Below are positions 25,773 to 58,904 of a stretch of 64,000 bases of DNA, in pieces (positions within the stretch are counted from its first letter, which is position 1; the number at the start of each line of letters is the position of its first letter). Source of the stretch: Mesostigma viride (lineage: Eukaryota > Streptophyta > Mesostigmatophyceae > Mesostigmatales > Mesostigmataceae); contig RPFO01000579.1 in NCBI GenBank assembly GCA_009746045.1, forward strand, positions 682,160-746,159. The letters run 5' to 3'. Under the pieces are notes generated by a model. The model was given only the letters and a program-made list of their open reading frames with translations, had not been told where the DNA came from and did no database searches. The translations under genes were made by a program, and so were the position numbers.

Positions 25773-26452
25773 ATTGCCGGTAAACTTACCGCCTATATAA
25801 GATGTTTTCGACGCGTACACTAGCTGGGAAGGCGGCACTTCAGGTAGCCGGGGCTTTAGCCATGCTCGTCCCAACGCACGCGGATAGTGCTTCTCACGTA
25901 AAATGGCGCCAACCACACTGCGACGAGCTGAGCTGCCTCATTTGTAGGCGACTGTCAATTGTACTGGCCACACGATGCCCGTCGGTCTTTCATATCCCTA
26001 CATGTAAAGACTGTCAATGGTTAATTACGTCAGCGGCGCGCTGTCTCTGCAACCTGCCATTGTCCGCACAGAAGTCACTGCTGACAAGTTACCCAGGGTC
26101 AAATCCAAAGTAATGACCATGATTATCCATCAATCTGTTACGTGTTAATTAATCCATCAAACCAGAGACGAACAGAACGCGCTGGATGCGAGGTATATTT
26201 AGCGACAGGCTGATCCTGAGACGCGCTGCGCAAGCATTCCATTCAGCACGAAATACAGGAAAGCGACACTTTCTATTGCTTTCGACTACCGTAATCTTGC
26301 CCCTAGTGTACCGACCTCCAGTGTAGATAAATCTGTTCTCAATCTCAAATCAAGTGGAGCAATATGGAATTGTTTGAGGACGCCCCGTCCTCACAACCTG
26401 TTGTTGTGTTGTTGTACTGTACTGTAGGAGGTGCCCCACTCAGTGTCGGGTA

Positions 26453-30206: not shown

Positions 30207-30238
<32 letters not shown>

Positions 30239-35747: not shown

Positions 35748-38700
35748 ATGGAAGGGCCAAGTCGGTTTCTTCCCCTAGAATTATCGATGAAAGAAGCGGA
35801 ATGGGGATATGCTGACGAGTCGGCGATGGAAGATGCCGACGAAGATGCGCTGGAAGACTCCGCCAACACGGCAGAAGGAAAGCTATTGGAAGCTTTCCTC
35901 AAAGAAGAGGTATCTTTGAAGGCCCTTCTGCAGTGGGTGAAGTCACCGGGGTTCAACCTTCCCGAGCCCCACGCGTACCTCGGCAGCTCCCTATCTCGAC
36001 ATGTGTTCGCATCATACTGTGCAAATTTCATTGCTCAGTCGTGCGAACGAGCAATTTGGAGCAGCGCTAGCCAGTCGCCGTTCCCCCGAAGCAGTCTACC
36101 TAGCCACGACACGCCCGACGGGATTACCACCGCCGAGAATGTCTCCGCGTCTCCCGCAATCCCCCCGGACGGCCTCCGACAACGCAGCTGGGGCGATCTG
36201 CGTGCAAACGACACGCCACCACCTGCTTCAATCTCCAGGGCTGCACCAGGGAGGCCGCTCGCTTATGCTGGTGACGTCCAACAGCAGCCAGGCCCCAGCG
36301 GCGCTAATCCTGGAGCACGCCCTGCGACGGCCAGCGGCGCTCCCTCTCTGGCCCCAGGAACCGCGCGGATCAGCGCCGATGCCAGCGCACCATCCGCGAT
36401 CTCAAATGCTAGCAAGCCGCAGTGGGCCAGCCTGGCCAACCGCCCAGGGCATGCGCTGGTTCCTCCAGGCCTAGCCGCCAGAGACACCGCCTCGGGTGAT
36501 GTAGCACGGCCTAACACCAACCCAGGTGATGTCACACGGCCTCATGTCGCCCCAGCTGACGTGGCAATACCACGACCAACTGCCAATCCAGGTGATATGG
36601 CGCCGTCACGGCCTCGTGCCGCCCCAGGTGACGCCGGGCGGCCTACAACGACCTCAGCTCAGTGGCCGCTGCAAGGCAAGCCGGCCGTGACTTTGGACGC
36701 GCGCGCGGTTAGGCCTCACGCATCTGGAGGGGCTGGCAGGGACAGCGGCGCGCCCAGGGACGCGGCGGTATCCCTGGATGACCGGGACTTCCCCTCGCTG
36801 GGTGCTGCCGTCGTCACGAAACCCGCACGGGCGGGGGAGGCTCCTTGCAGCCGCAACCAGGCAAGGGGTGCTTGCTATCGTTACAACTTACACAGAAACA
36901 TGCTTCCTAGTGTGTATACTTTCTATAGTAAGCATGTGTTCTATTAAGTATAAAAATAAAATGACTAGCCAGTTCATTTAAGTTATGGGGTCGCTTTGCC
37001 CAGTTCTAGTTTGGAGAAGAGAACAAGTTGCTGTCTCCCACTCTAGCTTAGTGTTGTTGAATGAGTACATGTGATTATCTGTGTGAACATGATCTGCTAT
37101 GGCAGAGACTAGGCGTATATTTATGGTATATCTATTTATGGCAGAAACTAGGCGTATATTTATGGTATATCTATTTATGGCAGAGACTATCTGTCTATTT
37201 ATGGTTAGTTGATATGGTGGCTGCAAAGGAATCCTGTGCTGTGTCATGCACAAGTGGCTAGCCAGGTCGATCCCATCGTACTCTGTCTATCTATTTGAAT
37301 AGCCAGGTTGATCCCATCTTACTCTGTCTATCTATTTGAATAGCCAGGTTGATCCCATCTCACTCTGCCTGTCTATTTGACTAGCCAGGTCAACCCCATC
37401 TCACTCTGTCTATCTATTTGACTAGCCAGGCCGATCCCATCTCACTCTGTCCATCTCCTGTACAGGTGCTGCTTGCACCTGGGTTGCGGGCTGCACTAAG
37501 GCGTAGAGGTCTGATGCGGTGTTTCCCTGCTTCTAGCCGTGTGGCGCGCTTCTTAGTGGTACCGTTGAGTCATCATATCCAAGACCTGCCTTTGAATGGA
37601 AGCAGCAGCGGGGGCCACAGTGCGGCGCAGACAGGTGCAGAGAGGGGCAGAGAGAGGCAGAGGGGGGCAGAGAGAGGCAGCGAGAGGCAGCGAGAGGCAG
37701 CGAGAGGCAGAGAGAGGCAGAGAGAGGCAGAGAGAGGCAGAGAGAGGCAGAGAGAGGCAGAGAGAGGCAGAGCGAGGCAGAGAGAGGCAGAGAGAGGCAG
37801 AGAGAGGCAGAGCGAGGCAGAGAGAGGCAGAGCGAGGCAGAGAGAGGCAGAGAGAGGCAGAGAGAGGCAGAGCGAGGCAGAGAGAGGCAGAGAGAGGCAG
37901 AGAGTGCCAGAGAGAGGCAGAGAGAGGCAGAGGAAGGCAGAGGAAGGCAGAGGAAGGCAGAGGAAGGCAGAGAAAGGCAGAGTGAAGCTGAGAGAGGCAG
38001 AGGGAGGCGGACAATGGCAGGAGGCAGATAGCTGACTGACTTGTATGGCCATCAAATGTACTTGCATCAAGTGTGGTAGTCACTTCATAGTAGTATGTTA
38101 GTAGCTTCATCCATTAACTGTGTATATATGGCAGCTGCGATAGTAGTTTCCTGTCACTTCTGATGTACCTATTTGTCTCTCGATATCGCGGCACTCCCGC
38201 TGCTTCCCTGTATTCTATTTTTGTCTCCACGGCCACCATGGGTGACGCTTTCCAGAAGAAACGCATCGCCCCCACGGCCACCGCGGAGCCCACGGTGAAC
38301 CAGGCCTTTGTGCGAGCGCAGACGCTGCCGCCGGAGACAGCAGCAGGGGTGGCCCCGAGAGCCAACGCCAATGCTAGTGCTGGTGCCACGGCTAGTCCTA
38401 ATGCTAGCGCTTCTGCCGACAATTCCACTCCCAATCCTTCTCCTAATGCTGTCTCCGCTGCTGCCGCTGCCGCTGCTGCTGCTAGTGCCAGCGGTAATGC
38501 TAGCACCAGTGCTACAGGTAATGCTAGCTCTGTTTCCAGCGTTGCGACGCGGACGCCAGAACCAATGGACTCCATCACAGCCTCGGGGCCTCGAGTTGGG
38601 GTTGGGACGACGGCTGCGCCAAAAGTTGAGGCAGGGACCGGGTCAACGGGGGCTGGGGCCGGGTCAATGGGGGCTGGGGCCGGGGCAGTGGGGGCTGGGG

Positions 38701-41700
38701 CTATTGGGCCTGGGGCTGCGCCTGGCTCTCAGGCACGTGATCCGAGCGGTGAGGCAGTGGCGTCAATGAATGGCTCCTCCCAAACTACCGGGCGCGGCCC
38801 GAGTGGGGTGCCAGAGCCCGTGGGTGCGGAAGATGCCAGCATTGACAGTCGTTCTGGTAATGGCGGCATGGATAGCAGCGGTGGTGGTGATAGTGGCGGT
38901 GATCACAGCTGTGGCGGTGAGAGCGGGGCGGGCAGATCGGGGGATGCTGCTGGCGGCAGTGGCTGTGGCGGCCGCAGTGGAAGTGGCAGTGGTGGCAGTG
39001 GTGGTGGTGGTGGCGGTGGTGGCGGCGGTGGTGATGGTGGTGGCGGGGGTGGCAGTGGCAGCAGGGATGGTGGCAGCAGCAGAATCTCTCGGGGGATTGT
39101 TGTCCTGGAGGATCTGGCGGCTGGAGTCGCGGGAGAGGGCACGGTGGAGCCTGCTGGCGACCTGGCAACGTCCCTGGATGCGTCTGGCGGTCCGTTTGCA
39201 CAGTGGCCTACGGCGGTCATGGTGAGTTCAATATAGTATGTGTGCGTGCGTATGTAAATTTAGTATGTGCCAGTGCGTGTGTACCAGGTTCGGGTATGGT
39301 TCGTGCATGAATTCTTTGATGAAGTGTCCCCAACATCAAACTGAAATGGGCGGGCTAGCCATTCGGCTGGGGGGGGCAAGCCTTTGCTGTGAATTATTTT
39401 AGTGCTAAACTTTGTGCTATCAATTCAAGAACATCCTAATTACTGAATTTTTCAATCTGGAGGACCCTCGTCACAGTATGCGACTCTCACCCAATAACTA
39501 ACCACCCACCCACCCACCCACCCACCCACCCACCCACCCACCCGCCCGCCGCCCGCCCGCCCACCCGCCCGCCCGCCCGCCCGCCCGCCCGCCCGCCCCC
39601 GCCCGCCCGCCCGCCCGCCCGCCCGCCCGCCGCCCCCGCCCGCCCGCCCGCCCGCCCGCCCGCCGCCCGCCCGCCCGCCCGCCCGCCCGCCCGCCCGCCC
39701 GCCCGCCCACCCACCCACCCACCCACCAACCAACCAACCAATCAACCAACTAACTAACTAACTTAAGTATGCATACTAGTATTCAACTGATGCAGTAATT
39801 GCATATTTGATCAGTTAAGTTACTGAAATCTACCCAGCATTGGTATCCTGGCCTGGCCACCACCATCTATCTAACTAGATACGTCGATCCCATCTCACTC
39901 TGCCTATCTATCTGAATAGCCAGGTCGATCCGCCGGCAGGATGGCAAGACCATCAACTAGCCAACCATACTGCCAATAGAATAAGCAAAAGTATTCAAAT
40001 GCTTGAACCTCGCCATCCCGCACCACGCCATACCACGATCACCCTGGCAGGCCGCCAAGCCCGTTGTGCCCCGCCGACCCACGCACCGGGTGGCCCGCCT
40101 GCATGCGGCCTTGCTCTCCCGCCGCCTGCTCCCCCACACGCTGGCCCAGATGCAGCAGCTGCTGCGATGGGTCGGGTCCTGGTCGGGGGAAGATGACAGA
40201 AGCAGAGACGGCGATAGGAACCAATGCAGGCACAGGGATGGAGGCCTGGATCAAGCCGGGGATATAGGCCGAGATGTAAGGCGGGATATAGGCCAAGCTA
40301 TAGGGCGGGATATAGGCCGGGACAGAGGCCAGGATGTAGGTTGGGATATAGGCCGGGAAGAAGATGGGGATAATAGCCGGGATAGAGATAGCCAGGATAG
40401 AGACCTGGATTACAATGACAAGCCTTTTATTCGTGAACATCGTGAGGTGCTGAACGGCAGGGACGGCAGGGATGGCGGTCCTGCTGGACCAGGTCCTGGT
40501 GCCAACCCTAATCGACTAGGTGGCAAGTGCGCCGAGGAGGGAAGGGCTGGCCAGGACAGCTCGGCATGCTGCGGGGAGGGGAGGGGAGGGGAGGGTGCAT
40601 GCGCGGAGGAGGGGAGGGCGGAAAAGGAGGGGAGGGGGTCAACGTGCACGGAGGACGGGTGGCGCGGGAACGGCGGGGCGGAGGGCGCTGAGGACAGTAT
40701 GGCGGGGAGGCGCGGCCCTGGGTGTGCGGGGGAGCCAAAGGAAGGAGAGGACGAGCCGGGGTGGGATGAAGAGCTGGAGGACCTGAGGGTGTATGCCAGG
40801 GACGCGCGGGAGGTCGCCCTGTACGCTTGCCTGGTCCTGGAGTCAACCGCGTGCTATCGGCTGGTGACGGCAGGTAAACCAACTCGGATTAAATCACGTG
40901 ACGGGAGTTAGGGCGCTACCAGCTTGTGACGGCAGGTCGGGCCACGCGCTACCGGCTGGTGGCGGCGGGTAGGGTATGATTTCTGCGACGATATACGTTG
41001 CAAGTGTTTGCGTTTGCAAATTGGCTACATTTCTTCTTAGCAGGGACATGAGAAATTGCCGGTGCTTTTATCAATTTAGGTCGGGCGCCCAGCGGCCGGC
41101 TTGTGACGGCAGGTAGGGCGCCGTGCTACCGGCTGGTTGCCCATCGTGGCGGATGGAGTGTGGTGCCCACACACAGTTTTTCCTGATTGTGGCACAAGAT
41201 TCTGGCATATCTTCCTGATTGTGGCACATGATTCTGGCAAAGCATCTGGCGTATGTTCCCGATTCTGGCATGTTTCGGTGGCATCCTTCGGCAGCGGGCG
41301 ACGCCCTCTCCAACCATCTATTTCCTAATCAAAATTACGACTCTATAATGTACAATATATATACCATGTTAGCGTTGGATTTGGTTATGTTTGGGTGCCT
41401 TCACTCTGCTGTAAATAATGATAATTTTTAACATATATATAAACCATACTAAGCATTATAGATACTGCTGCTACCTTTTGACCATGGTGGCATATGCATG
41501 GTCGTTGGCTTCCTTCCTTCCGCAGCGGGTGACGCCCTCCTGAGGCCACTGCTGGCAACCGCGGCAGTCCCACGGCTTCGGCCCGCTCTTGCGCACCGAC
41601 TGAGGCTGTCGCTGGACGAGTGGGAGGCGGCTGCACTGCGCTGTGAGGACTGGTGCAGTTGATATTACTGACCTAATGCTAGTAATGCTCCAGCCAGTAC

Positions 41701-44700
41701 TGTACGTTAGTTCTTAGCGGTATTCGGTGGATGAATAGGATGCCGCCCCTCTGTACCGTTAGAATGGCATTGTTTAATTATAGGGACATTGATAGTGATA
41801 CAGGTGCCAGTCCTACTCACTAATTCTTTTTTTTGTTTTACGTATACTGGTATTGCTAATAATACGGCTCCCAGCCGAGCTCACTAATTCTCAACATTGT
41901 GAGCTGGATGAACGGGAGGCTGCCGCTGTGCGCTCTGTGGGTTGGGTAACTATGCGGGGGAATCACCTTAACATTTTAGCGTCATTACTACCCATGCTAG
42001 GTTTTATTTGCCACCCACTGCATCGCACTGAGAGGGCTACTACCATGTGCTAGAGGTAGAACTGATTTTAAGGACCATGCGGCTACTTTTAAGTAGTATG
42101 ATTCTTACTAATTATTCTTCCTGTCCATTCTTAAGGACCATGCGGCTACTACCACGTGGTGTGGTTCTTGCGGATGATTGGATGATTCTACCTGTCCATT
42201 CTTAAGGACCACGCGGCTACTTCCACGTGGTGTGGTTCTTACTAATGATTCTACCTGTCCATTCTTAAGGACCACGCGGCTACTTCCACGTGGTGTGGTT
42301 CTTACGGATGATTCTACCTGTCCATTCTTAAGGACCACGCGGCTACTTCCACGTGGTGTGGTTCTTGCGGATGATTGGATGATTCTACCTGTCCATTCGT
42401 AAGGACCACGCGGCTACTTCCACGTGGTGTGGTTCTTGCGGATGATTCTACCTGTCCGTTCTTAAGGACCACGCGGCTACTTTCACGTGGTGTGGTTCTT
42501 AATAATGATTCTACCTGTCCATTCTTAAGGACCACGCGGCTACTTCCACGTGGTGTGGTTCTTGCGGATGATTCTACCTGTCCATTCTTAAGGACCACGC
42601 GGCTACTTCCACGTGGTGTGGTTCTTGCGGATGATTGGATGATTCTACCTGTCCATTCTTGAGGACCACGCGGCTACTTCCACGTGGTGTGGTTCTTGCG
42701 GATGATTCTACCTGTCCGTTCTTAAGGACCACGCGGCTACTTCCACGTGGTGTGGTTCTTGCGGATGATTCTACCTGTCCGTTCTTAAGGACCACACGGC
42801 TACTTCCACGTGGTGTGGTTCTTAATAATGATTCTACCGTTCCATTCTTAAGGACCATGCGGCTACTTCCACGTGGTGTGGTTCTTGCGGATGATTGGAT
42901 GATTCTACCTGTCCATTCTTAAGGACCACGCGGCTACTTTCACGTGGTGTGGTTCTTACGGATGATTCTACCTGTCCATGCTTAAGGACCATGCGGCTAC
43001 TTCCACGTGGTGTGTTTCTTACGGATGATTGGATGATTCTACCTGTCCATGCTTAAGGACCACGCGGCTACTTCCACGTGGTGTGGTTCTTGCGGATGAT
43101 TGGATGATTCTACCTGTCCATTCTTAAGGACCACGCGGCTACTTCCACGTGGTGTGGTTCTTGCGGATGATTGGATGATTCTACCTGTCCATTCTTAAGG
43201 ACCACGCGGCTACTTCCACGTGGTGTGGTTCTTACTAATGATTCTACCTGTCCATTCTTAAGGACCATGCTGCTTCTTTTTTAGTTAATTTCCTGGTCAT
43301 TAAGACATAAAGGCACACTCGAGGCACCCAGCCATCGAGCACGGGCTTGGTGGTGTTCCCGCCTTCCCCCGCCACGTTGGCCACCTGGCGGGCCAACGTG
43401 GCGGTGCGTGAAGTGATGACCACAAAGGGAGTTCTCATCTGTTGATCAACCTGCTTGATGATGTTTCCGCCCGCGCCAGGTGGCCGGGAAGGCGCTGAGC
43501 TGGCGGGTGGGGGCAGTGCATTCTTCCAACCCTTTGACGCGGAGCAAGATTCGAGACATCAGTTTCGATCCAACCAGGTAGGCCGCAAAATCATGCCAAA
43601 GGTCCTGTGTTCGATCCCTTGCTGGTAGCTTCTGAGCTTTCTTATTTTCTGTGTTCCGCGGAATCTCAGATTTGGGCTGCTAGCGCTTTCACGTTTGTTG
43701 CTTTCTGATCTGACGACAAGGTAGGCCCCCTATTTCCATTACAGTGGTATCTCTTCAGGCATCCATTTCAGTTCAACCAGGTAAGCCCCCTATTTCCATC
43801 ACAGTGGTAACTTTTCAGGCATCCACTTCAGTTCAACCAGGTAGGCCCCCTACTTCCATTCCAGCGGTATCTCTTCAGGCATCCATTTCAGTTCAACCAG
43901 GTAGGCCCCCTATTTCAATATCTCTTTAGAGTTCAGGCATTCGTTTTGACCCAACCAGGTACTCCATTCTCTGATGCTGGCCGTGTTTTTCGTCCAACCG
44001 GGTAGGCTGCCCGTCCATCATTTGAGACACCACTGCCAACTCATTTAGGTAGACGGTTCTTATCATTTGAGACACCACTGCCAATTCATTTAGGTAGACG
44101 GTTCTTATCATTCGAGACACCACTGCCAATTCATTTAGGTAGACGGTTCTTATCATTTGAGACACCACTGCCTGTTCATTTAGGTAGACGGTTCTTATCA
44201 TTTGAGACACCACTGCCAATTCATTTAGGTAGACGGTTCTTATCATTTGAGACACCACTGCCAATTCATTTAGGTAGAGGTTCTTGGAACCTCTGGGGGC
44301 ATCGAGTGCGTTCCAGCCAGGTACGCCATACTTGAATTGTATTTCTCCAGGCATCCGTTCCCATGTTGTTAGTGCACCCGTGTTGTTATAGTGTCCCCAT
44401 GTCGCTGCCGCAACTAGTTAGTACTCCTTGTTGAGTGCATACTGGGACTACTGCGACTACTTCGGGTGTTGGATTGCTAGCCACCCATCACCCACTACGC
44501 CTCCCAGGACCGTTTCCTCAACCGTGAGCGCAACCTCAAAATTTGACTTAGCGGGGATTTAAAAAGTGGAGGGATTTCAGGCTGACAAATCTATTATGCG
44601 ACTCTTCTTTGGCCACGTATCTAGGCACGTGCGAATAATATCCTGCCCTCTGTTGCTGCCACATCTCCCAGGACCGCTTCCTCAACCGCGAGCGGTGCCG

Positions 44701-47700
44701 CGACAATTTCTCCAGTGCCATCAACAACTGCGCGCCCTCTCTCTCCTCCACCAGCAAGGGGCGCGTGTTCTGGGACCTGCTCGCGGGCGGCAGTGCCATT
44801 GCTGGTGGTAGTGCCATCAGCCGCAGCGGGGGGGGAGATGTGGTGAGTTACGTGGTCAGTAGTCACGTGGTCAGGTGGTAATGCCGTTGCTGGTGGTAGC
44901 GCCATCAGCCGCTACCGGGGCACGGGCCACGGGGGGGGGGGGGGGGGGGGGGGGGGCGGGATGCGGTGAGGCAAAGCATGCTGTCCGTTTGTCCCGATTA
45001 CAACGTTCCTCATCGACCAGTGTTGAAAGCCGATTCAATAAGTAGAGCCTGATAGTCTATGCATTCTGTCATGATGTTCTGCCTTCCCGCCCCTTTGCCA
45101 ATGGGGGCACCTGCCTGGTACCCTGGGCCGGCTGGCGCCATGACGGCAGGTGGCGGCGGCGTTGAGCCAGGCGCAGGAGCAGTTCAGCTCTATCCAGGCG
45201 ATGGTGGGGGAGCTGCTGGCGGACCTGCGGCCGGACAACTATGCGTGGTTTGCGGGTGGGTGCCTCTCCGTTACAATCTCGGATTTATCTACACAAATGT
45301 GTCTAATGTGTTCTAGTAGTCCAGATAACTACGCGTGGTTCGTAGGTGGGTGCTGATTTAGGGCGTGCATGTAGTATTATAGAGGTAGGTAACAGTTGTG
45401 TAACGGCGGCTGGATAACCATGTGTGGTTCGCACGTGGGTGCTGCTTTATTGTGACCATGCATATCGAGTCGTAGTCAAATAGCAAATAGTAAATACTAC
45501 TATAGCTGTATGCATGAAGGTATTTACCGATAAGACAAATGCTACATACTTATTGTAGTATTTAGTTATAGTAGTGCATAGTAGTATATAGGTATAGTAG
45601 TACATAGTAGTAAACCATTATTGTAGGACATAGCAGTATACTACTATAGTTATAGTAGTATACTAGTATAGGTATAGTAGTTGTGGCCGGATGTCCACGC
45701 ATGGCTCGCAGGTGGGTGCTGCTCAGTTGTAATTGTGCATATATCCACACCAACATTTCTAATCTACGCTAATATTCCAGTACTCTACGCGTGGTTGGCG
45801 GGCGGGTGCTGCTGTGTAGTATTATCATTCCAGCATGTGTAGAAGTCGCAGTGGCCATGGCAGGTGGAAAGAGTCTAATCTTGGACTGGATGCAGGTGTG
45901 GATTTGAAAAGGAAATGACCAGCTTGGATGGAAAACTCTGTTCAACCAGTGCTGGTACGTCGGTGCCATACCAGCAAAGGCCTTAGTCTTGCTGGTTCTT
46001 TTCGACAGCTGAGCCTGCAGTCCGTAGCAACTCAAATTGTTTGCCCTGTTCGCGTCTCGATAGGCTGAGGCTGCAGTCCATAGCAACACCACTTGTCCGC
46101 CCTGTTTGCGATTCGATAGGCTGCAGTCCTCCATAGCAACACTCCCATTATTACGTTTACAGTTTGTGATGTTCTTCGTTCATGGTGTTGTTCGCAGACA
46201 CCGCGCCACTCTGGCACCTTGTTTCGATGATCGCGACGTTTATCCCTATGACAGACTTCTCGACATGCCTCATACCTACCCCTATAATCCCCCCCCCCCC
46301 ATTTCGATCTGCTTCAGACCTAGCCTGCCCCCCCCCCCCGTATCTCATATCTCCAACCACCACCAAAAACGCATCAACACGAAAACCGCATCACCACAAA
46401 TTATGCATCACCACCAAAAACTTCACCCTGGCAGACGTGTTCGTGAAGCGCATCCGCCAGGTCAGCCGCATGGGCGAATCAGACGAACAACTGCTCAAGG
46501 ACTTGGGCGCTGCTGCCACCTGCACGCCGTCCAAGCTGCTCTCCCTGCACAACCGCCTGATGGGTGGTGACCAGCTGTCGTCCTCCACTGCCGCCTTCCC
46601 CTCCTCCGCCGCCCCCTTCTCCTCCTCTTCTTCCTCGGGCTCTACTGCCACACCATCATCATCCTTGACTCGTGGGCCCAGGGGATCTATCCCCTCCTCC
46701 TCTAACCCCTCTTCCAACTCCTATAACCTGTCCTCTTCTTCCTTCCCTGCCCTCGGGGGGCCCTCGCCATCGGGGGCTGCGCGTGGGCCTGTCTCCAACG
46801 AGGGCCAGGTCTTGAAACAAAGCAAAGGGGGTGGGGCCGGGGGCAGGGGTGGGGCTGGGGGCGGGGCCGGGGGCAGCATAAGCTCTGCCTCCGAGTCCTG
46901 GGGGAGAAGAATTAATCCTGGGATGACGGCAGCTAGTGTGGTGGAGTTGCAGCGAGAGAACCAAGGGTCATTTCAGCCCCAGCTGGTCTCGCAATCAGGA
47001 CGGTCCTCCTCCACAGGTTCCGTCCGGCCTGCTGGCGCCGGTCACGCAAACACCCCGATGTCTGGTCACTCTAGCGCCCTCATACCCTCCACGGGCGGCG
47101 CGGCGAGCAGGAGGGTCAACCCCGCGCAAGCCTGGGGGGGGTCCGGGGGCGGGGGGGGAGGCGTTGGGGGAGGCAGTAAGGGTGCAAGTAGCACCGGGGG
47201 AGGGGCAGGGGCTGGGGGGCCCGGTGGGGGGGCCGATATTGGAAGTGGCGGAGCGGGAGGCATGGGCAAATCGGGTCCCAGTGGTTCTGCCCAAATGGTC
47301 AAGATGGTTAGTGGAAGTCAAAGGAACATTGGAGGCAGCGGAGGTGGTGGTGGTGGTGGCGGTGGTGGCGGTGGTGGCGGCGGTGGTGGTGGCGGTGGGG
47401 CGAGCCTGCGTGTGACGGCAGTAGCTCGGGTGGTGCGCCGGTTCCCTCCGTCGCTGCGGGTGTACGCGCTATTTTTGGAGGCGGCGGACAGCCACGTTCT
47501 CAACAGTCACATCAAGGAGGCGGTGGCACGGCATATGCAGGAGATGGTGGCGTACGTTTACGATTTCCCTTTTTCTTTCCCCCTTACTATATCGGAGTTT
47601 TGCTTAGTTAATACTTCTAAGTTAGCTTAGTTAAGCTTGCTTAGTTAATACTACTACGAAGTGACCACAGGCACGTGCAGAAGATGGTGGAGAACATTGG

Positions 47701-50700
47701 TATGTTCACATTAGATGAAGCTTTGGTTCTAGTTCTAGTTGGTTATTTGTCGGGCCTTTTAATCTGTGACCACATGCACATGCAGGAGGCGGTCGAGTAA
47801 GCTGATAGTGTTTGTTTCTTCTTTCTTTAAGTGGTTGGTGCTTTCCTTGCTCAACATGTACATGCAGGAGGTAGTGGAGTATGTTGCTAGCCTCCCTTTG
47901 GTCAAGTTTAAGGTTGGTGCATTGCCTGGTTAATTCTCGTGATTACAGGCACATATAGCTCATGGTCGGGTATATTGATTGGTTAAGGAGGCAGTCAACC
48001 CTACTTCCATCATCATCGTAGTCTGTTTATCCATGTTTTTGGTGTTTAATTACATCCGCGATATGGTATTTGCAGCTGGGGTCAGTGGACTTCGCCTTTA
48101 CAGGCGGAGTACAAAAGAGATGGTGCATCAGGCACTTCCTCCTCCTCCACCTCTTGGTGGCACTAAGTGCTAATGGATTCTACCGAAGATGCCCCTTTCA
48201 ACCGCCCATCATACTTTCGCGCACGTTTCCTCAACTACTCATTAGCCTTTCGAATATGTCTCTTGCGCCATACGTTCTCCTTCCTCCTTCCGCCTTCCTG
48301 CAGGGTGGCCAGTGGCTCCTCTGCCAGCCCTGCGCTGGCGTCGGCGTTCACCGAGTGTGTGCTCGGCCTCAAGGCGCTCGCGTGCCTGCTGGGGTGGGTG
48401 CAAGCATTTTCATTCTTACTGTGTACTCCTATACTACACTAGTGTGTATGATAGGATGATGCATGCCATCAATGCTCGGTGCCGAGGTGCTCGCGTGCCT
48501 GCTGGGGTGGGTGTCGAATAGCAATTAATGAATTAGTCAACTTAATCTTGTCGAAGCATGTATGCTCATGATGCTGGGCTAATGGCGCTTGCGTGGGTGC
48601 CGATGCTTCAGATTAATGATATTCAAGATTTTAACGTGCCCAGCATCGTTAAAATTTTTGACCATCTACCAGACAAACGAGTTTGGGTATGCCGATGGAC
48701 GAGTTTGGGTATGCCGAGTGGTTCTGCATTGTCGCTCTTGTCCGGCTCAACCTTTCATGAGGCACGAAACAACGCCACTTGTCGGTTTGCGTCGCGACGT
48801 CACGTCATCAAACCACCGCGATGAGACAAATTTGAATATCAGCTCGCTCCGCCATTCTCGCCAGTGCATGTACAACTTTGAGACGTTTTCTCTTCCACGG
48901 GTCTAGAATACACGCTCGCCATCTTCAGTGTGGTCACATAGCCATCGGCGCCGCGTCAACCTCCCACCCAGCACCTCCTGGCCTCTCCCTCGTGCCCTTT
49001 CCCTCTACTGCCATTAATCTGCTTGTGCTGGCCACCCTTGCCCTTCCCCTTCCCCATCACAAATCTGCTTGTGTCGACCGCTCTTTCGTCGTTGCCGTGA
49101 GCGTTTTCTGGTTTATCCCTTTTCCCCCCTTGAGCATTACCTCTCTCTCATGAGCTTACCTCTAATTTCTTGCATTACCTTTCTATGAGCTTACCTCTCA
49201 TTTACCTCTCATGAACCTCTCATTTACCTCTCCTTCATGGGCTTACCCCGTTACCCCCTGCCACACACCTGGGCATGGGCCTTCGCAGGTACCTGGCCTA
49301 CGGGGACACCGAAGCCGCCACCAGCGAGGCGCTGCCACCCAGCTTATGGCGTTCCAGCGGTCACCCGCCCACCCACCGCGCCACATCAGCATCTGCATGG
49401 CAGGCACCCCGCGCCCCCCCCGTGGATCTGGCGCTAGTTCTCAAGGAGGCGCTGCGTGAGGGGACCCTGACGCTGAACGTGCCCTGGGCGCTGGAGCTGC
49501 TGCGCTGGCAGGTGGTCAGTTGAAAGATTTGTTGCGAACCTGTGTGTGCCAGGTGGTGGGCGTGACCTCGGTAGCTCTCCGTCATTTGGGCTGTTCAGCG
49601 CGAGTATATTGTCGAGGCAAGCAGGATATATAGCAGAGCAAGTATATTCTACTATGCTACTGGCAGCCGGTGCTTTGGCTACAATGTGGACAGCTTGCTT
49701 ACCGACGATGCTTTCATATGGACACGCTCGCGCTATGATCTGGAGATAGCGTACCAACGCTGCCGCCGGTGGGGTTCAACCTGCTGTAGGCGCTGCAGAC
49801 CATGGATGGGTGTCCCGCTGCATGGGCTTATTTCATGTGTCCTGTTGGATGCTTTCCTGTCTTATGCGCCCTGTTTGATGTCACTGCGTCAGCCTTGTTG
49901 GGAATCGCACTCCTAGTGCTGCTTGCCTGTTGTATCTTTGTTTATACTAGTATATTTATTTGTTTTGTTTGTTTATAAGTAGATACGTGCGCATGCCGGG
50001 GTGGCTGTACCGATAAAACATTGTGCAAACATTCGCTGCCCCAGCCAGGAGAAGAGATTGCCTTTGCTACATCAATTTCTGTTCAGTTCAGTCAACACTG
50101 CTGTATTTATCCCTTACCCGCTGTGTGGCTAGTTCAACATCGTATAAAACGTCGCAGTGGCCCACACCTTGCGTGGCCCCTCATGCAGGCAAGGGAAGGG
50201 GCCCTGGTTTCTCGATCAGATGATTTACAGGTGTCTGTCTCATCACATACCCTTAGTATCCGGAATACAGACATCAGGAATAGCAAGTGATGTATAACAA
50301 GTGATTAACAGGCGTCTGTCTCATCACATACCCTTAGTATCCTGAGTACAGAAACCAGGGGCTCCTCGCCATGCCCCCTTTGGCCTGCAGCCAAGAGAAG
50401 GAGTCCTGGTCTCCTCACCAGAAAGCGCTGGCCCATTTGTCGCCGCGGTGGCGGATCAAGTGCCCGCCCTGATGGAGCTGATGCGCATCTACCGCCATCC
50501 GAGGCTGCGGCCAACGCACTCCTACTTCAACGTAAGTTCGGACCTTTTGGTAAGTGCAGGCTTCACCCCTAAGCCATTATAAGTTCAAACCTTTTTCAAC
50601 TGTAGGTGGTAAGCTGCGGCCCAGCGCACCCCTATGTCAGTGTAAGCCCACAGTTGTTGTCATGGTAGGTCGCGTCAGAGATGGGGCGAAAGCAGCATTA

Positions 50701-51528
50701 GTAAATACGTATATTTAGTCTTGAAGTAAATACATATATTTAGTCTTGAAGTAAATACATATATTAAGTCTTGAAGTAAATACATATATTAAGTCTTGAA
50801 GAAAATACATATATTTAGTCTTGAAGTAAATACATATATTTAGTCTTGAAGTAAATACATATATTTAGTCTTGAAGTAAATACATATATTTAGTCTTGAA
50901 GTAAATACATATATTTAGTCTTGGAGTAGATACATATATTTAGTCTTGAAGTAAATACATATATTTAGTCTTGGAGTAGATACATACATTTAGTCTTGAA
51001 GTAAATACATACATTTAGTCTTGAAGTAAATACATTATTTCGTCTTGGAGTAAATACATATATTTAGTTTTGGAGTAAATACATATATTTAGTCTTACTC
51101 ACTTAGTCTTGAAGAGATCCTGCTTACGTTGGATCCGGATCCGAATGTACCATATCCTGCCCATCTTGTCTGTGTTTTTAATTCATTTATTGACACGCAA
51201 ACTGCGTCACGTGAGCATTCACCCTCATGTCTATGAGAGACCCCAGGCTGTGAAACCTTTTTTTTTCCGTAGCGGTCACAAACAGCACTGGACAGCCTTC
51301 TAAACAGCGCGTGATAGCATTCCAGGGCCGCCCAGTGGGGGCTTGTGCGAGTCATCAAGGAAAGGCTGTGGAGCAGGCAGTGCTGTGCGGCAGGGGGTTG
51401 TGAAGGCAGAATGTTCTGCTGGCATACATTTGCACCGTGTTCTGCTGGCAGACCTTTGCAGCATGGGGAAACCCTCTTCATGCTTGAAGCATTATTCACA
51501 AGTATGTCCGTCATCGTCGTCATCGTCG

Positions 51529-51609
<81 letters not shown>

Positions 51610-51610
51610 G

Positions 51611-51656
<46 letters not shown>

Positions 51657-51681
51657 GTCATCATCATCATCATCATCATCG

Positions 51682-51760
<79 letters not shown>

Positions 51761-54630
51761 TAATAATAATAATGTGATACACTGCCATCACATAATAGAA
51801 GTTATCATCACATAATAGAAGTTATCATCACATAATGATAACGGTACACTGTCATCAAGCTTCGAGGCATGCGCCCAGTTCCTTTCGCAGGTGCGGCATT
51901 AGGAGTCATCCTTAGATGAGAACGATTACCCTTTTTACCTTTTCAAGCCTTCGGTGTGCTGCTATAAGATAGAGGTGTGTCAAAAGCGTTGGCCTACTTA
52001 GCCTACATTAGGTTCCTAACTTAAAATTAAAAATCGTTTGCTGGCCCTTTGCTTGTGCAGGCGAACGCGCTGTGCGTCACGGCGGCACTGGAGGGCTTCT
52101 TCCGGGAGGTGGGTTTGGACGCCGAGATATTCCGGATATTGGAGAGAGAAGACATGTCCAATGTCGAGGTGCTTCCTGGTAGCTCCCCTGGCGCATCGTG
52201 GTCTGAAGAGAGCAGCCGAGGCCCTCTAAAGAGGAGCCAGCTCTCCACCCAGGGCAAATTGGGCAGCCAGCACTCTCCAATTGCAGGGTCTCCCTCTTTG
52301 GAGCATCCGTCGGTGGTTGCCAGGACGGATTTGGCCGGAGGGTCTGCGAATGATTTGAGGAGGGGAAGCTCTGGCCGGAACGTGGTAGACGAGGAGCGCG
52401 AGGAACCCCATGCTGGAAGGGATGGCGAATTAGTCGATGATGAAGATGATGACGAGGAGGACGAGGAGGAGGTTGATGGGGATGGAAGTCGGTCAAACTT
52501 GCGGCACAGTAACAGCGGGCGCCTGATCAGCACAAAGGGCAAGAACGGCTCCCACGGCAGCGTCCGGTCCAGGGATGGCAGCATAAGGTCCTGGGACAAC
52601 CGGGCAGGCGACGGGGGCGGCGACAGTGACAGCAGCGACGACGATGGGGGCGGCGAGGACGGAAACATGCTGGACAACAACGAGGAGGAAGAGTGTGGCG
52701 GTGGTGAAGGGGTGGCTGAGAGCGTGAAAGGGCCAGCTGGCGGCTTTTATTCGCGGCTGCGGGGTGACAAGGAAGCCGCCGCTGGCGATGGGGATGGTGG
52801 CGTGCTGCCACCGCTTGGGCTGGACTTTGCAGAGGGCATCGTCGACCGGAGGTTTCGGCAGAATGTGTGCCCGTTGCTGGAGGTAATTTTTTTTTGTTTT
52901 TTTTTTTAATAGGAGAAGATTGTGCCAGTAGCGTGTGCCCCCTGCGGGAGGTAACTTGTTCTACTATATATTACCTAGTATATTACCTAGTCTATTACCT
53001 AGTCTATTACCTAGTAAATTACCTTGTATATTACCTAGGTACCAGTGGGTTCGGGTTATAGCACGGGGTCCTGATCCCACATAATAGGCATTTCGCTTCG
53101 TGGTAGTGGTTACATGGTACGCCTTATAAAGATAATGCTGCCTGCTTTTGCATGGGCGCTACCCTCTCCATAGTAGGGCGCCACCCTCTCCTGAGTTAGG
53201 GCGCTGCCCTCTCTTGAACAGGGCGTGACCCTGTCCTGGACTCAGTGCACTAGAACGGTCCTAGCCCCATTGCATGGGGCACGATCAAGGGATGCGCGTT
53301 TCTGGCAGGGATGGGCGGTGCAGCAGGAAAATTTGTGGGCTTGCTTGATCTTTTGAGATAGCCGAGGCCAACGTGGCTACCCTCTGATCTTATTCAACTG
53401 AGTCGGGCTTGGCTGATCCGATCAGATAGCCGAGGCCAACGTGGCTACCCTCTGATCTTATTCATTGAGTCGGGCTTGGCTGATCCGATCAGATAGCCGA
53501 GGCTAATGTGGCTACGTGTAAATTTTGTTCAGCCAAGTGGGGCTTGCTTGATCTGTGCACTTGTCCATGTCATTGTCGGTGCTGTTGTCACTGATGATGC
53601 TGTTGTTCTTCTTGCTGCTGTCATCAAGCGAAGTACTAAAACCGGTTGCTGCTTGTAGTCCTTGGCTTTCATCCATGACACTGCTGCTACTGTTTCATCA
53701 CCGCCATTTCTGTTTCCGTCATCACCATTGCGGCTCTTGTTTTATCATGGCCATTTCTGGGTCATGTCATGGCCAGTGTCGTTGCTGTTGTCATCAATGC
53801 CGCTCTCTATTCCATCTCCCGCATTCCTTGCTTCTCTTTGTTCTACCATAGCCATCCCTGTGTCATGTAGTGACCTTCCTCTCCCCCCCCCCTTCCATCT
53901 ATTCCCCTGGGTGCCGGTGGGCAGGGTCTTCGCACGACCCTCGCGAGAGCCAACCGCCACCCCACCGCGGGGCCGTCGCCCGCCGTGACCCCCTTTGCGA
54001 CTCCCCCAGTGGTTGCGCCGATATCCAACACCCCCGCGGTCATGCCACGGGCGCTTGGGCAGAAGCATCCGGGGGCCCACCCGCCGCCCCGCAAGATCGT
54101 CCCGGTGGCGCCACTGAGCGCGGAGAAGAGCACGGCAGGAGCAAGTGCGGCGGCAGCAGGAGACTCAATCAGCGACAACCGTCTGGTCGCGTCGGGGACT
54201 GGTTCCCAGTTATTGGTATTGGGCAGCAACAACCCATCCGGAAGCAGTGTGTCGGGGTCATCCACCGTGGCTTCGACATGGCCACCGCTGCTTCATCCAC
54301 CACCCTCGTCTGTGGGCCAAGAGTCAGTACAGTCAGCCCAGGTGGCCGGGCTGCCGGCTCCCTCCGCGGCCTCACTGCCTGCCCATCCATCGGCTGGGGG
54401 GGGGCGCTTGATATCAACGATGATAGGTGGTGGTTCCCAGGGTGTTTCCTTGATGCAGGGGAGCCCTGCTGGTAGCTCCCAGGGTGGGGTACCGAAGAGG
54501 GTCGGCACTGCCAAGGATGCCACATCAGCATCCTCCGCCTCAGCAGCACCAACAATAGCAGGAGCAGCAACAACTGCAGCAACAGCAACAGGAACAGCAA
54601 CAGCAACAGCTACAGCTACAGCTACAGCAA

Positions 54631-54662
<32 letters not shown>

Positions 54663-57600
54663 ACAGCAGCAGCAGCAGCAACAGCAACAGCAGCAGCAAC
54701 AGCAACAGCAACAGCAGGAGCAGGAGCAGGAGCAGCAACAGCCGCATCGTCATCGCCGTCGTCAATTGCGGCTCGGTCGTCATCGCAAGTCGGCACACCT
54801 CGCGCCGGTTGGGCGTCGTCACCTGAAGACATCGCAGCGATCAAGTTGCGGCTGCAGGTAATGGCAGTAGGCGACGTATTTTATTGGGAGTATGCTGGTT
54901 GCGGCTGTGTGTGACAGAAGTAGGAAAAGTATCTCGTGACCACATCAAATATTTTTCAATCAAGTTGCGGCTGCAGGTAACCACTCGATTGTTACCTATG
55001 TTTTGTTGTCCTGGCAACTCGAATAAGCAGTAGCTTGCCTCTTTTTTGAATAGCATGCGCTGGCCGCGGCTGCAGGAACCACTCCCCTTACCTCCAACTG
55101 AGACCATCCCCAGCCTTAAACCCAAACCCAAACCCAAACCCAAACCCAAACCCAAACCCAAACCCGAACCCAAACCCAAACCCAAACCCAAACCCAAACC
55201 CAAACCCAAACCCAAACCCAAACCCAAACCCAAACCCAAACCCAAACCCAAACCCAAACCCAAATCCAAAACCAAAAATAAAACCAAAACCAAAACCAAA
55301 AGCAAAACCAAAACCAAAACCAAATCCAAATCCAAACCCGCACTTAAACCCAAACCCAAACCCAAACCCAAACCCAAATCCAAACACAAACACAAACACA
55401 AACACAAACACAAACACAAACACAAACACAAGCCCCCATCCCAATCCCCACCTCGTCATTTGCATTTATGGACTAAGAGCCATTTCACTACTTTGAGTAG
55501 CTCTGGGCAAAGCATCTCTGGACACAGTTTGCCTCTGCACGCATTTCCGGGAATCTCATCAGCCCAATTCGAGTCATTATTCTCAGTGTTGCTACTACTG
55601 CTGATTCTCGTGAGTCTCTGAGCAACAGTCTTCCCCCCCCCCCCCCCCCCCCCCTTATTACAGCGCGTGTTTGTGGACCAGCAGCTGCAGCTCTCTGGCA
55701 TTGAACTACGATACCTGAAATGCATGCATGTCTCTCTTCCGTACCCCCCTTTAGTACATCCATCCGAGTGCGCGTTCATGGACCAGCAACCACAGCTTAT
55801 AACCAAGTATTTGATTACCTAAAACGAAAATATGTGCCCTCTGTGCGCATGCCTGTCTCCCCCCTCCCTCCCCACACCCCACACCCCTCCTCTTTATTGC
55901 ATCCATCCCAGCGCGCGTTCATGGACCAGCAGCCCCAGCTGCGCCCCGTGTACGACTTCGTCGTCAACACACTGCTGGCGAACGCGGTGGCGGCCGCAAG
56001 GGAGGCCGTGCTGCCCTCCATCGCCCTGCCAGCTGGCAGCATAGCATTGTTTGACACAGCTGGCAGCCTGGTACCCTCATTCACCACGGCATCAACTGTC
56101 ACTACCATGCCATCGCATGCCATGGCGTCTGCTGGCAGCACGATGCCCTTTGCCCCAATGCTTTCAGCTGCCACCGCGGTGACCGCTGCCTCGGCGATGC
56201 CGGCGGCAACCGCCGTGCTGCCCTCCACGGTCATGACGGCAGCTGGCACGACCGTGCCGTTTGCCAGAGTTGCACCGATGGCGCCGGCGCCGGCGCCGGC
56301 TGCCACAGCACTGCTGGCCACTCCGACAATGGCACCATCCGCCTCGGCCTCGCCTGCTGCCATGGAGGTGCCGGCGGGCAGCCTCATGGCCACGAGCAAC
56401 GCTGCTGCTGCCAATATCAGCAACGCTGCTGCACACATTGTCAGCGACACTGTCATGAGCGATGCCATCGCAAATCCCGATCGACTTCCGCCGGACCGCT
56501 GCACCCCCAGCGCCAACCCCTTGGAAGCACCCGACAGCAGAGTCTCCCCCCAAGACAGGCTGGTGTCCCCCGGCCCGCTTGACGCAGAACACCGCACGCC
56601 AATGGATGGCGATGGGGCTAGGATGGGAATCACAAGTCTGAAGGAGGCAGCAGGTGTGAGTGGGGCTGGGAGTGCTAATGCTGGCAAGCGCGCAGGCACC
56701 GCTGTTTCAAATCCTGCCATGGGATCCGGTGGCTCAGCACCCAACGCGGCCCTCGACTCTCCAAGTCGTGGCACAGTCCATAGTACCTTCAATTCTGGTG
56801 GGAGTTCCCATGCTATTCACTTGGGCGCAGGCCTCGTTAGTTCTATTCCTGCCCTACATCCTGGCACGGACCCTAGCAATTTTACATCTAATGGGGGTCA
56901 TATTGACCCTTATTCTGGCGCACCGGGAGGCTTTGTGTTCAGCCACCTGCCCGTCCTCGGCTGCCCCGGGGACCTGCTGGCGTCGGCGGTGGCGTCGCAA
57001 GCCCAAGTGTTCACGCTGAGGGACGCTGCGGCTCGTGCGCGTGCGGACGAAGGTCCGTCTTTCCCTCTTTCGTTTCCCGTTCTTGATGTCGCCGTGGGTA
57101 TGTGTGTGCTTTCTTGATTTCTTCGTGTGTGTGAATGATAATGTGCGTATGCGAAGGAAGGTCCCAACGTTCTTCTTTTCCTTCCAAGGACTTGGTGTGC
57201 GTCTCTATCTGAGCCTGTGTGTGTATGTGTGTGCATGTTCATGCATGCTGAGGATGGGGGTGGAGAAGGGGAAGGGGATGAGTGGTGTACAAAATTACAA
57301 TAATTTATACAGAAAGTTCCTGTTTCATCGTGTCTTTTTTTTTTTTTTCTTTTCTTTTGCCTAAGCTTTTTCCTTTTTGTAGAGCTTGTGTATCCTTTTG
57401 AGTGTTTCTGGTTGTTTTGAAGGGGGAGGGTGAAGGGAGGGATTTTTCCCAAAAAGTGGGTCTAAACCTTGCGTTAAGCAAGATTACAAAAGGGTGAAAG
57501 TAATAACACACCAGGGGGAGGGGAAGGGGCCAGGGGAGCTCAGTCTATTATACTAATCAACTTGGCACTGCGCCATATTTTGCTGTACATATTTGGTAAA

Positions 57601-58655
57601 GCAGTAAGTTGAAGGGATTTTTCACAGCCTCATATATGGCTGTATGCATGTTCGGCAATGCAGCACAATCATGTACTAAAGCTGGATTTGGCATGGTATC
57701 CCGTTTTTAATTTGGTATATCGCAACGCCCTAAAGTTGCTATTGCAGCATCCTAAATTTGCTATTGCTTCTATATGCATTTGACACCTTGCCCCGACCCA
57801 AACCCTGCAGGTGGGGAGGATGCGGCGGACGCCAGCACGGGACTCCCCGACATCTCTCCCGCATCCATGCACCGCCAGCTGGCGGCCAAGCGGGAGGAGA
57901 TGCGGCTGCAAACAGTCGCGAACAAGGCAAGTGGCCAAGTTTCTGACGTGCTAGCGAGCAAGGCAAGCGGTTAACCATGGTGCAAGCAGTAGTGAAGAAG
58001 GCCAGTGAACACCTATTTGCCTCTACTAGCAGACACGGAAAGTGTATATGTCATGATAGTGCTATTGCTATTGCAATCGCATATGCGAGCAAGGCTGTGT
58101 CAAGCACTCAAGCTAAAACCATTGTCAGTGCTAGCCCAAGTGCTAACAGTCACTGACAAACTGCTGGACGACTGCGGACAAGTGCCGACAATTGTTAATA
58201 AGATTTTTTTTAATGCCGATAAATGCTCAGTTTCTGACCTTGCCGTATACGTGCACTGGCATGCACGCACTCACGAATACACACTCCCCCCCCCCCCTCG
58301 ATCTCCCCATGGTTTCTCCCCTGACCATCCACCTCCCCCTTTCTGTCTCCCTTCCTATGCCCAGGATATTGCTGCGGTCATCAAGGCCACACTGGCGTCC
58401 GCCACCGCCTTCGCCCTCGACCACTTCACCTCCAATGTGCGCCCAGCGCTCCGCTCCCTCTCGCCCCCTACTGTGCTTGCTCAGCGCCAAGTCCTCCCGA
58501 CCGCCCTCGCGATGGCCGTAGAGGCCGCGCAGGCCGCAATCTCGTCCAGGCTGCAGGCTGCCCTCCAGGGGGAGGTGGCGCGTCGGATACAGGAGGAGGC
58601 CGAGCGCCAGGCGAGGGCGGCGCGCCAGCAGCTACTTCGACAGGGCAGCAGATGA
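35748..58655 (+). CDS. CDAN1: Codanin-1-like protein
   Basis: Sixteen exons: 35748-36860, 38256-39221, 40051-40873, 41526-41642, 43480-43577, 44672-44842, 45150-45255, 46435-47551, 48304-48393, 49289-49511, 50391-50531, 52061-52882, 53925-54857, 55912-57052, 57811-57926, 58365-58655. All 15 junctions keep phase; the protein is 2755 residues, over twice human codanin-1. Block order follows animal codanin-1 as I remember it: LKEEVSLKALLQWVK near the start; ARLHAALLSRRLLPHTLAQ; ALYACLVLEST; FFQPFDAEQDSRHQF-RSNQDRFLNRER over introns 5-6; DVFVKRIRQV and SKLLSLHNRLMG; AFTECVLGLKALACLLG; LNVPWALELLRWQ; RRFRQNVCPLLE; and FMDQQPQLRPVYDFVVN plus a DIAAVIKATLASATAFALDH end, as in the codanin C-terminal domain. 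Ser-, Gly-, Ala- and acid-rich inserts (in exons 2, 8, 12, 13, 14) explain the size. In animals it binds histone chaperone ASF1 and nuclease CDIN1. Introns 1 and 15 are GC-AG. Confidence 0.85.
37085..37205. repeat. About 37-bp tandem repeat, three units
   Basis: Units carry GGCAGA(G/A)ACTA and TATTTATGG blocks and lie in intron 1 of the codanin-like gene. Confidence 0.85.
37255..37465. repeat. About 45-bp tandem repeat, five units
   Basis: Units contain GCCAGGTTGATCCCATC, then CACTCTGTCTATCTATTTGA. Two further units of the same family occur in intron 2 (about 39868-39932), so the family has spread between introns of one gene. Confidence 0.9.
37633..38000. repeat. Decamer AGAGAGGCAG array, about 35 units
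   Basis: The array is a near-perfect 10-bp repeat in intron 1 of the codanin-like gene, drifting to AGAGGAAGGC at its right end. Arg/Glu-rich plus-strand and Leu/Ser-rich minus-strand ORFs over it are artefacts. Confidence 0.95.
39503..39728. repeat. CCCA/CCCG tetramer array
   Basis: About 55 units: CCCA at both ends and CCCG in the middle, in intron 2 of the codanin-like gene. The minus strand is rich in GGGC and GGGT runs and could form G-quadruplexes. Confidence 0.95.
42055..43270. repeat. 60-70-bp minisatellite, about 18 units
   Basis: Each unit reads TTCTTAAGGACCACGCGGCT, ACTTCCACGTGGTGTGGTTC, then TTGCGGATGATT with or without an extra GGATGATT, giving two unit lengths. AAGGACCAC and GTGGTGTGGTTCTT inside each unit are partly complementary, so units may fold. 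It fills most of intron 4 of the codanin-like gene; both strands carry open ORFs by chance of unit length. Confidence 0.95.
43582..43718 (+). repeat. Dispersed short repeat, copy 3, at a splice donor
   Basis: This is the same family as 33325-33480 and 33742-33896, in the opposite orientation. It begins within five bases of the exon-5 donor of the codanin-like gene. The nonamer AGGTAGGCC occurs at 43576-43584 and again at 43719-43727. Confidence 0.7.
43719..43965. repeat. About 60-bp tandem units carrying copies of the exon-5 donor
   Basis: Each unit contains CAGTTCAACCAGGTAGGCCC or a close variant, and TTTCCAT(T/C)ACAG, so each has both donor-like and acceptor-like sites. The model is the true exon-5 end at 43559-43582. 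Confidence 0.85.
44015..44282. repeat. 45-bp tandem repeat, six units
   Basis: Units read TCATTTGAGACACCACTGCC, then AATTCATTTAGGTAGACGGT, then TCTTA. Each has a donor-like AGGTAGAC. The array lies in intron 5 of the codanin-like gene. Confidence 0.9.
50695..51100. repeat. 25-bp tandem repeat, about 16 units
   Basis: Units read GTAAATACATATATTTAGTC followed by TTGAA. The repeat is in intron 11 of the codanin-like gene. Confidence 0.95.
51190..51235 (-). mobile_element. Decayed LINE 3'-end scrap
   Basis: ATTGACACGCAAACTGCGTC followed by ACGTGAGCAT matches the LINE 3' terminus with a damaged hairpin. It shows an older round of insertion, inside intron 11 of the codanin-like gene. Confidence 0.6.
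51508..51762. repeat. CAT trinucleotide array
   Basis: About 85 CAT units with a few CGT or CAG changes. Poly-Ser, poly-Ile, poly-Asp and poly-Met ORFs over it are artefacts; it is in intron 11 of the codanin-like gene. Confidence 0.95.
53150..53525. repeat. Two sets of tandem repeats in codanin intron 12
   Basis: A GGGCGC(T/C)(A/G)CCCTCTCC motif repeats four times (53154-53245), and a 60-bp block with GATAGCCGAGGCCAACGTGG repeats three times (about 53355-53520). Confidence 0.85.
55117..55430. repeat. AAACCC hexamer array
   Basis: About 50 units; AAACCC dominates at both ends of the main block, with AAAACC and AAATCC in the middle and AAACAC at the right end. It lies in intron 13. It resembles but does not equal plant-type telomeric AAACCCT. 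Confidence 0.95.
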
Positions 58656-58904
58656 ACAGCAGCACACTCCGTTATTGATGTGTCACGCACATAGTTACAA
58701 TCAAGAGTAGACCTGGAGTGGAAATGTTGATTCCGCAGACAAGTCAGTACCCAAGTTTCGTCGATTTGATTATGCTTAGCACGGTTGCTGTGAGTAGTGA
58801 TGCATACGATATTTGTAACTTTCGTGTAATTATTTTCTAATGAGATTAGCATAGTACTCCGTGGCATGCCCATGTGCATGCAAGTACTTACTTACTGTGA
58901 GTAG
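58656..58904. other. 3' flank of the codanin-like gene
   Basis: Unique AT-rich sequence between the codanin stop and the first LINE relic. It should contain the polyadenylation site; no single signal stands out. Confidence 0.5.

Follow-up and report, generated by a model that had tools for sequence, protein, structure and literature searches.

Worn copies of exon edges in most introns of a codanin-like gene of Mesostigma viride and their probable origin by recurrent short local duplication

Why should the last coding bases of an exon, together with the adjoining splice site, recur in degraded form inside the intron that follows? The question is raised by a stretch of 64,000 nucleotides from the single-celled green alga and streptophyte Mesostigma viride (GenBank assembly GCA_009746045.1, contig RPFO01000579.1, positions 682,160 to 746,159), called the window here, which carries a codanin-like gene of 16 exons at 35748..58655 on the forward strand, as defined by open frame and splice sites. 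A sequence-only reading, made from the letters without database searches, had described such copies in almost every intron of this gene and attributed them to tandem duplication across exon-intron junctions. According to the analysis given here, the introns probably grew largely by recurrent short direct local duplications, of which the edge copies are the visible part.

To compare each exon end with its own downstream intron, the last 35 exon bases plus the first 8 intron bases (-35 to +8) were taken as donor query, and a copy was considered significant at not more than 1 of 200 dinucleotide shuffles of the intron. By this measure, exon-end copies on the same strand are significant in 12 of the 15 introns (introns 3-9 and 11-15), with best scores of 24-57, as against 13-20 in the reverse complement of the same intron and at most 25 in other introns; in introns 1, 2 and 10 the donor query was not significant with respect to the shuffles. 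Using an acceptor query against shuffles, exon starts have clear copies in the case of exons 4, 6, 11 and 14, that of exon 2 being marginal (2 of 200 dinucleotide shuffles, 1 of 200 first-order resamplings), and no copy was found for the other 10 of the 15 acceptors. Taken together, at least one clear edge copy resides in 13 of the 15 introns (introns 3-15, intron 10 by virtue of its acceptor only). The claim that degraded exon ends recur in nearly all introns is thus borne out, and so is the check that had been set beforehand, namely the match rate in real versus shuffled introns, in which the real introns came out above the shuffles in 12 of 15 cases.

The signal is centred on the junctions and has a direction. 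Sliding the query through the exon yields a score of at least 26 in 11 of 15 cases when the query ends at +8, in one of 15 when it ends at -30 and in none of 7 to 15 exons when it ends at -40 or further inward, with no inverted matches at any position; the copy signal peaks at the junction, and exon interiors give none. Local matches with a score of at least 22 comprise 30 direct and no inverted ones (33 and three, respectively, at a score of at least 20). Among the 30 direct matches, two cover the intron side alone (donors 2 and 11) and four the exon side alone (one each in exons 3, 6, 8 and 9). With respect to polarity, the ends of exons 2-15 are copied downstream in 8/14 and upstream in 0/14 cases, and their starts upstream in 3/14 and downstream in 0/14. 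Direct orientation and polarity fit head-to-tail duplication.

The gene model, which was built by hand, consists of exons at 35748-36860, 38256-39221, 40051-40873, 41526-41642, 43480-43577, 44672-44842, 45150-45255, 46435-47551, 48304-48393, 49289-49511, 50391-50531, 52061-52882, 53925-54857, 55912-57052, 57811-57926 and 58365-58655. It encodes a complete frame of 2755 amino acids, and its introns of 307 to 1837 bases comprise 13 of the GT-AG and two of the GC-AG type. GC in place of GT opens introns 1 (36861) and 15 (57927), and the copies of exon 15 likewise show GC. The protein was searched in six pieces, of which the exon 13/14 piece matches Pfam Codanin-1_C with an E value of 6e-5 and 23.5 bits, i.e., below the curated cut-off of 27, and the remaining five have no match to this family; in addition, protein searches found no relative among the candidates with the most shared words, roughly 8000 of which were scored in each search, and the gene is therefore named codanin-like only. 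Rfam over positions 28000-59000 and a tRNA search over the whole window returned nothing.

The copies all lie on the forward strand. The end of exon 3 recurs four times (40915-40937, 40942-40971, 41097-41115 and 41122-41137, with scores of 31, 35, 33 and 27), and that of exon 4 at 41903-41940 (score 31) as well as in a second, weaker copy near 41722-41759 that is based on eye alignment only. Exon 5 is followed by an array of its end and donor (43719..44327, found as a tandem repeat, scores 23-32), in which units of 60 base pairs (bp) at 43719-43916 are succeeded by members at 43935-43961, 43988-44010 and 44309-44327. The exon 6 end together with its donor recurs, interrupted by a run of G, over 44887..44970 (scores 50 and 25), and the end and donor of exon 7 are found four times (45321-45353, 45406-45442, 45682-45728 and 45785-45809, scores 36, 39, 29 and 35). 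The end of exon 8 recurs at 47670-47698 and 47862-47885 (score 28 each), with weaker copies placed by eye at 47775-47796 and 47946-47968 and a match at 47777-47793 in another register, and that of exon 9 at 48473-48513 and 48572-48595 (scores 57 and 22). Further downstream there are copies of end and donor for exon 11 at 50613-50646 (score 30) and exon 12 at 52933-52960 (score 31), two copies of the exon 13 end at 54959-54980 (22/22 identical) and 55066-55076 (scores 44 and 22), a copy of the exon 14 end and donor at 57143-57164 (score 24) and one of the exon 15 end and GC donor at 57981-58007 (score 29), both of the latter being reached by 1 of 200 shuffles and 0 of 200 resamplings; weaker copies of the exon 15 end near 57945-57962 and 58075-58093 were again placed by eye. 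Exon starts with their acceptors recur at 41287-41308 (exon 4, 0 of 200 shuffles), 44501-44545 (exon 6, score 50), 50184-50220 (exon 11, score 31) and 55761-55797 (exon 14, score 54), the last three likewise at 0 of 200, and alignment places an older copy of the exon 14 start near 55665-55705. The sequence-only reading had already noticed the copied starts of exons 6, 11 and 14, but not that of exon 4; the coordinates which it gave for the copies hold overall, except that those at 41722, 47945, 57945 and 58075 fall below the score cut-off and are seen by eye alignment only, and that the exon 8 copy at 47768 is matched in another register only.

Directly after the exon 5 donor there is a dispersed repeat (43582..43708, blastn) of about 130 bases with three copies, two of which reside in opposite orientation in a neighbouring S1-domain gene (33754-33880 and 33337-33463; blastn 92% and 90% over 127 bases). 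It is flanked on both sides by the nine bases AGGTAGGCC (43576-43584 and 43719-43727), a pair that may well be a target-site duplication repeating the donor, in which case the repeat would have inserted at the exon 5 donor and moved the former beginning of the intron downstream by 143 bases. One stretch of the repeat presumably resembles a tRNA B box; ARAGORN and Rfam gave no match to it.

Are the junctions themselves special? After masking of clean arrays and edge copies, a scan over 17 kb in the 24 introns of four genes of the window revealed, at a score of at least 28, 27 direct and one inverted short duplicates in intron interiors, which occur in 13 of the 24 introns, have a median length of 27 and a median shift of 64 bases and are in a few cases G-rich or remains of small arrays. 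In one-sided comparisons at score 24, a direct duplicate was found for 69 of 698 interior windows of 36 bases (0.10), and undecayed junction windows have one at 12/15 donors and 4/15 acceptors of the codanin-like gene and at 3/9 donors and 3/9 acceptors of the other genes. With artificial decay of the exon reference set at 15, 20 or 25% substitutions and 3-5% indels, settings which were chosen by the analyst and are close to the 13-21% observed at codon positions 1 and 2, the respective rates become 0.22, 0.15 and 0.07 for codanin-like donors, 0.15, 0.09 and 0.06 for other donors, 0.13, 0.08 and 0.04 for codanin-like acceptors, and 0.21, 0.13 and 0.07 for other acceptors. Since decayed junction windows thus range from 0.04 to 0.22 compared to 0.10 in the interior, the rate at exon edges would mostly be an effect of the preserved reference, and a junction hot spot is not clearly supported once reference decay is allowed for.

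Edge copying is not confined to the codanin-like gene. Testing four genes as with the donor query, with 200 first-order resamplings and a copy called at 1 of 200 or less, copies were found at 24 of 48 splice borders, i.e., 15/24 donors and 9/24 acceptors (the marginal exon 2 being counted), and at one of four stop codons, but not at the one start codon tested. The codanin-like gene contributes 12/15 donors and 5/15 acceptors. In the S1-domain gene (28541..35027, reverse strand; 1/4 donors, 2/4 acceptors) the donor of the exon at 29803-29956 and the acceptors of the exons at 31087-31256 and 29803-29956 are copied; its product, spliced by sequence and frame, equals the Mesvir1 model P0001 (jgi/Mesvir1 Mv17885) of 449 amino acids in every letter, and this model splices past the copies. 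A gene which we take to be sugar-epimerase-like (21301..25793, reverse strand; 1/2 donors, 1/2 acceptors), gene names besides S1 being tentative or descriptive, has a copy of its last acceptor at 21707-21738 and of its second donor at 22313-22338. In an unnamed gene (18478..20088, forward strand; 1/3 donors, 1/3 acceptors) the acceptor at 18810, the donor after 19028 and the stop codon are copied, the acceptor at 18708 and, in older copies, near 18590 and 18478, and the stop codon at 20064-20088 (24/25 identical). A further worn copy of the coding end and stop of this gene, to which the exon 18810-19028 belongs, is discernible by eye near 19910 (within 19857-20088). In one scan of the segments at 4703-8674, two windows match inside a segment and 14 in an adjoining satellite. 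A satellite at 8733-10656 consists of about 240 copies of GAGGGAAG, and at 58900-60700 there are stretches that, by eye, presumably resemble reverse transcriptase.

The process by which the introns would have grown can be sketched as follows. Duplications of tens of bases would land at distances ranging from about 20 to a few hundred bases. If the duplicated stretch included an exon-intron border or a stop codon, the outermost original site would stay in use, so that the gene survives, and the inner copy, being free of use, would decay. Edge copies would be conspicuous because their exon side does not change and provides a standard of comparison, as the decay test suggests, whereas duplicates internal to an intron lose both sides, and later insertions and new duplications would drive the copies apart. 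The molecular step would most likely be slippage or unequal exchange, or alternatively break repair that copies nearby DNA.

A number of observations weigh against this account, at least in its simplest version. Excluding the exon 5 array, the exon-tail parts of copies are alike in 15 of 21 copy-copy pairs (p < 0.01; 0 of 120 unrelated pairs), but the spacers between copies are homologous in only 1/37 pairs, the single case in the codanin-like gene being one exon 7 pair; between introns, too, spacers are unlike (1 of 120 sampled pairs). Anchors of weaker copies were placed by eye in this comparison, as in the identity profile and the acceptor test given below, and some are a few bases off. Whole units of about 100 bases that decay evenly would leave spacers as similar as tails, which they are not, and none of 25 simulated settings of substitution and indels produced like tails together with unlike spacers, so that even decay of such units was discarded. 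The exon 13 copy is identical at 22/22 positions, yet its flanks are unlike. Either the copied segments were short, or tails decay more slowly. In addition, codanin-like donors are copied more often than acceptors (12 versus 5 of 15), a bias that a symmetric process alone does not predict, and a modest excess at these donors is possible, given that 0.22 under the mildest decay exceeds the interior rate of 0.10, and the decay settings were a matter of choice. In two-sided windows, the codanin-like introns contain local duplicates at about double the frequency (100/549) of presumed intergenic DNA (53/644), the counts being 8/279 in other coding segments and 36/395 in the partly repetitive codanin-like exons. 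Finally, the three other genes together have copies at 3/9 donors and 4/9 acceptors only, and the one scan of the segments at 4703-8674 found no edge copy.

With regard to unit length, each of the 60-bp units after exon 5 consists, according to tandem repeat detection, of exon tail, donor and intron DNA, and in the young pair 18708/18810 the exon side is identical at 38/40 positions and the intron side at 48/62 aligned bases with 21 gap columns. Most duplicated segments would accordingly have been short and are now probably separated by later insertions. Tandem duplication across junctions, as proposed by the sequence-only reading, stands as far as orientation (30 direct versus no inverted matches), polarity and the 60-bp array are concerned; however, a process specific to junctions is not supported, in view of the 27 direct versus one inverted interior duplicates, nor is a single repeated unit decaying evenly, the spacers being rarely homologous.

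How do other explanations compare with recurrent local duplication? Exon and copy differ at the three codon positions in the ratio 28:25:49 in the 30 matches and 34:36:54 in 24 registered copies, while differences between copies amount to 48:54:49 on 150:149:147 sites; since the latter are equal over the positions, there is no coding constraint on the copies, and the excess at third positions is to be ascribed to the exon. Copies agree with each other against the exon at 18 sites, 11 of them third positions, as would be expected from synonymous drift of the exon. Selection of the copies as decoy or regulatory donor sites is very unlikely: base +1 is kept in 23/24 and base +2 in 20/24 registered copies, and tails are more alike among copies than spacers, as this explanation would have it, but conservation of GT in 43/48 base comparisons is little above that of the nine preceding exon bases (171/216, copies registered by their donors), +2 agrees in only 14/23 copy pairs, differences are spread equally over codon positions, and a donor copy is lacking in introns 1, 2 and 10. 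GT is kept neither strictly nor in a clearly favoured way, and the copies look non-functional. Even less probable is a reading of the copies as mini-exons or as sites of recursive splicing that have acceptors of their own, for although some copies, e.g., those of the exon 5 array, are preceded by AG, the highest-scoring acceptors to the left of 29 copies score no differently from those at random intron places (mean 1.73 versus 1.63, P 0.44), coding constraint is lacking, and the S1 gene model passes over its copies. An assembly artefact, by which collapsed or repeated reads yield false duplicates, is barely credible in view of the varying degree of decay among copies and the mostly unlike DNA between them; moreover, in PMC6947507 a published genome of the species is described as based on PacBio reads at 113-fold coverage, although the window may derive from another assembly.

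The strongest competitor, if still an unlikely one, holds that, by way of RNA, R-loops or splicing intermediates, a process linked to splice sites transfers into the intron a copy of no more than the final 20-40 exon bases together with 5-10 intron bases. Ungapped identity of 29 true-copy pairs reaches background level by -31 and +11, tails are common to the copies and spacers are not, and the exon 13 copy is short and perfect between unlike flanks, all of which such targeting would explain. However, the drop beyond +8 is partly expected, as the intron past the donor is unconstrained, the exon 5 units contain intron DNA besides the exon tail, comparable duplicates occur in intron interiors, and one of the four stop codons, which has no splice site, was copied likewise; copying of a stop codon is not expected from a splice-site mechanism. 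It is equally doubtful that the splice junctions of M. viride are copying hot spots at which edge and splice site are pasted about 100 bases into the intron in a manner coupled to splicing or transcription. Donor bias, unlike spacers and the finding that at 7 of the 12 codanin-like donors the best copy lies 90 to 140 bases away keep a junction-centred mechanism viable.

Recurrent local duplication as favoured here has counterparts among known systems. Like intronic minisatellites and tandem repeats, the edge copies are local repeats on the same strand, and these introns contain many clean arrays; unlike minisatellites, they are few, worn and spaced and, besides exon 5, mostly not arrays for Tandem Repeats Finder. 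Introner elements with their target-site duplications provide another comparison: the one dispersed repeat at the exon 5 donor, whose short flanking repeat includes the donor, is reminiscent of them, but with the exception of exon 5 no common element lies between the edge copies, as the spacer comparisons within and between introns show.

Closest is the potato RdRp gene, where a tandem duplication over an intron-exon boundary duplicated the splice signals (PMC4974935). Here as there the duplication crosses an intron-exon boundary; however, the potato case is a single recent event that produced a new intron, in contrast to the many old events within existing introns and without a new intron in the Mesostigma gene models. 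Intron gain by duplication of exonic AGGT, as presented in PMC4974935 and PMC2891723 for the Rogers model, ATP2A1, the 24-bp arrays of fission yeast and Drosophila, likewise involves short tandem duplicates with splice motifs, the coding sequence being kept by splicing out the copy, but there an exonic segment gives rise to a new intron, whereas here the copies lengthen a pre-existing one: each modelled intron starts at the first donor and ends at the last acceptor, with the copies inside, and no new intron is bounded by copies. Relative to the single duplication across an intron-exon border known from PMC4974935, the present case is one in which such an event has recurred throughout a gene.

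Among the titles and opening lines of abstracts brought up by literature searches, none reports edge copies for the majority of a gene's introns, which is not proof of absence, and no description of junction-centred copying coupled to splicing or transcription was found. The main text of PMC7027972 lacks words that start with intron or splic, and PMC6947507 lacks those with splic, its intron passages being concerned with length, repeat share and intronic non-coding RNA. PMC6947507 gives a mean intron length of about 1142 bases for M. viride, with repetitive elements making up 30.1% of intron space. The present findings suggest that part of the remaining intron space is old local duplication beneath the reach of repeat finders, and exon edges, as readable references, could serve as dated probes of the rate of intron growth, here and perhaps also in other genomes.

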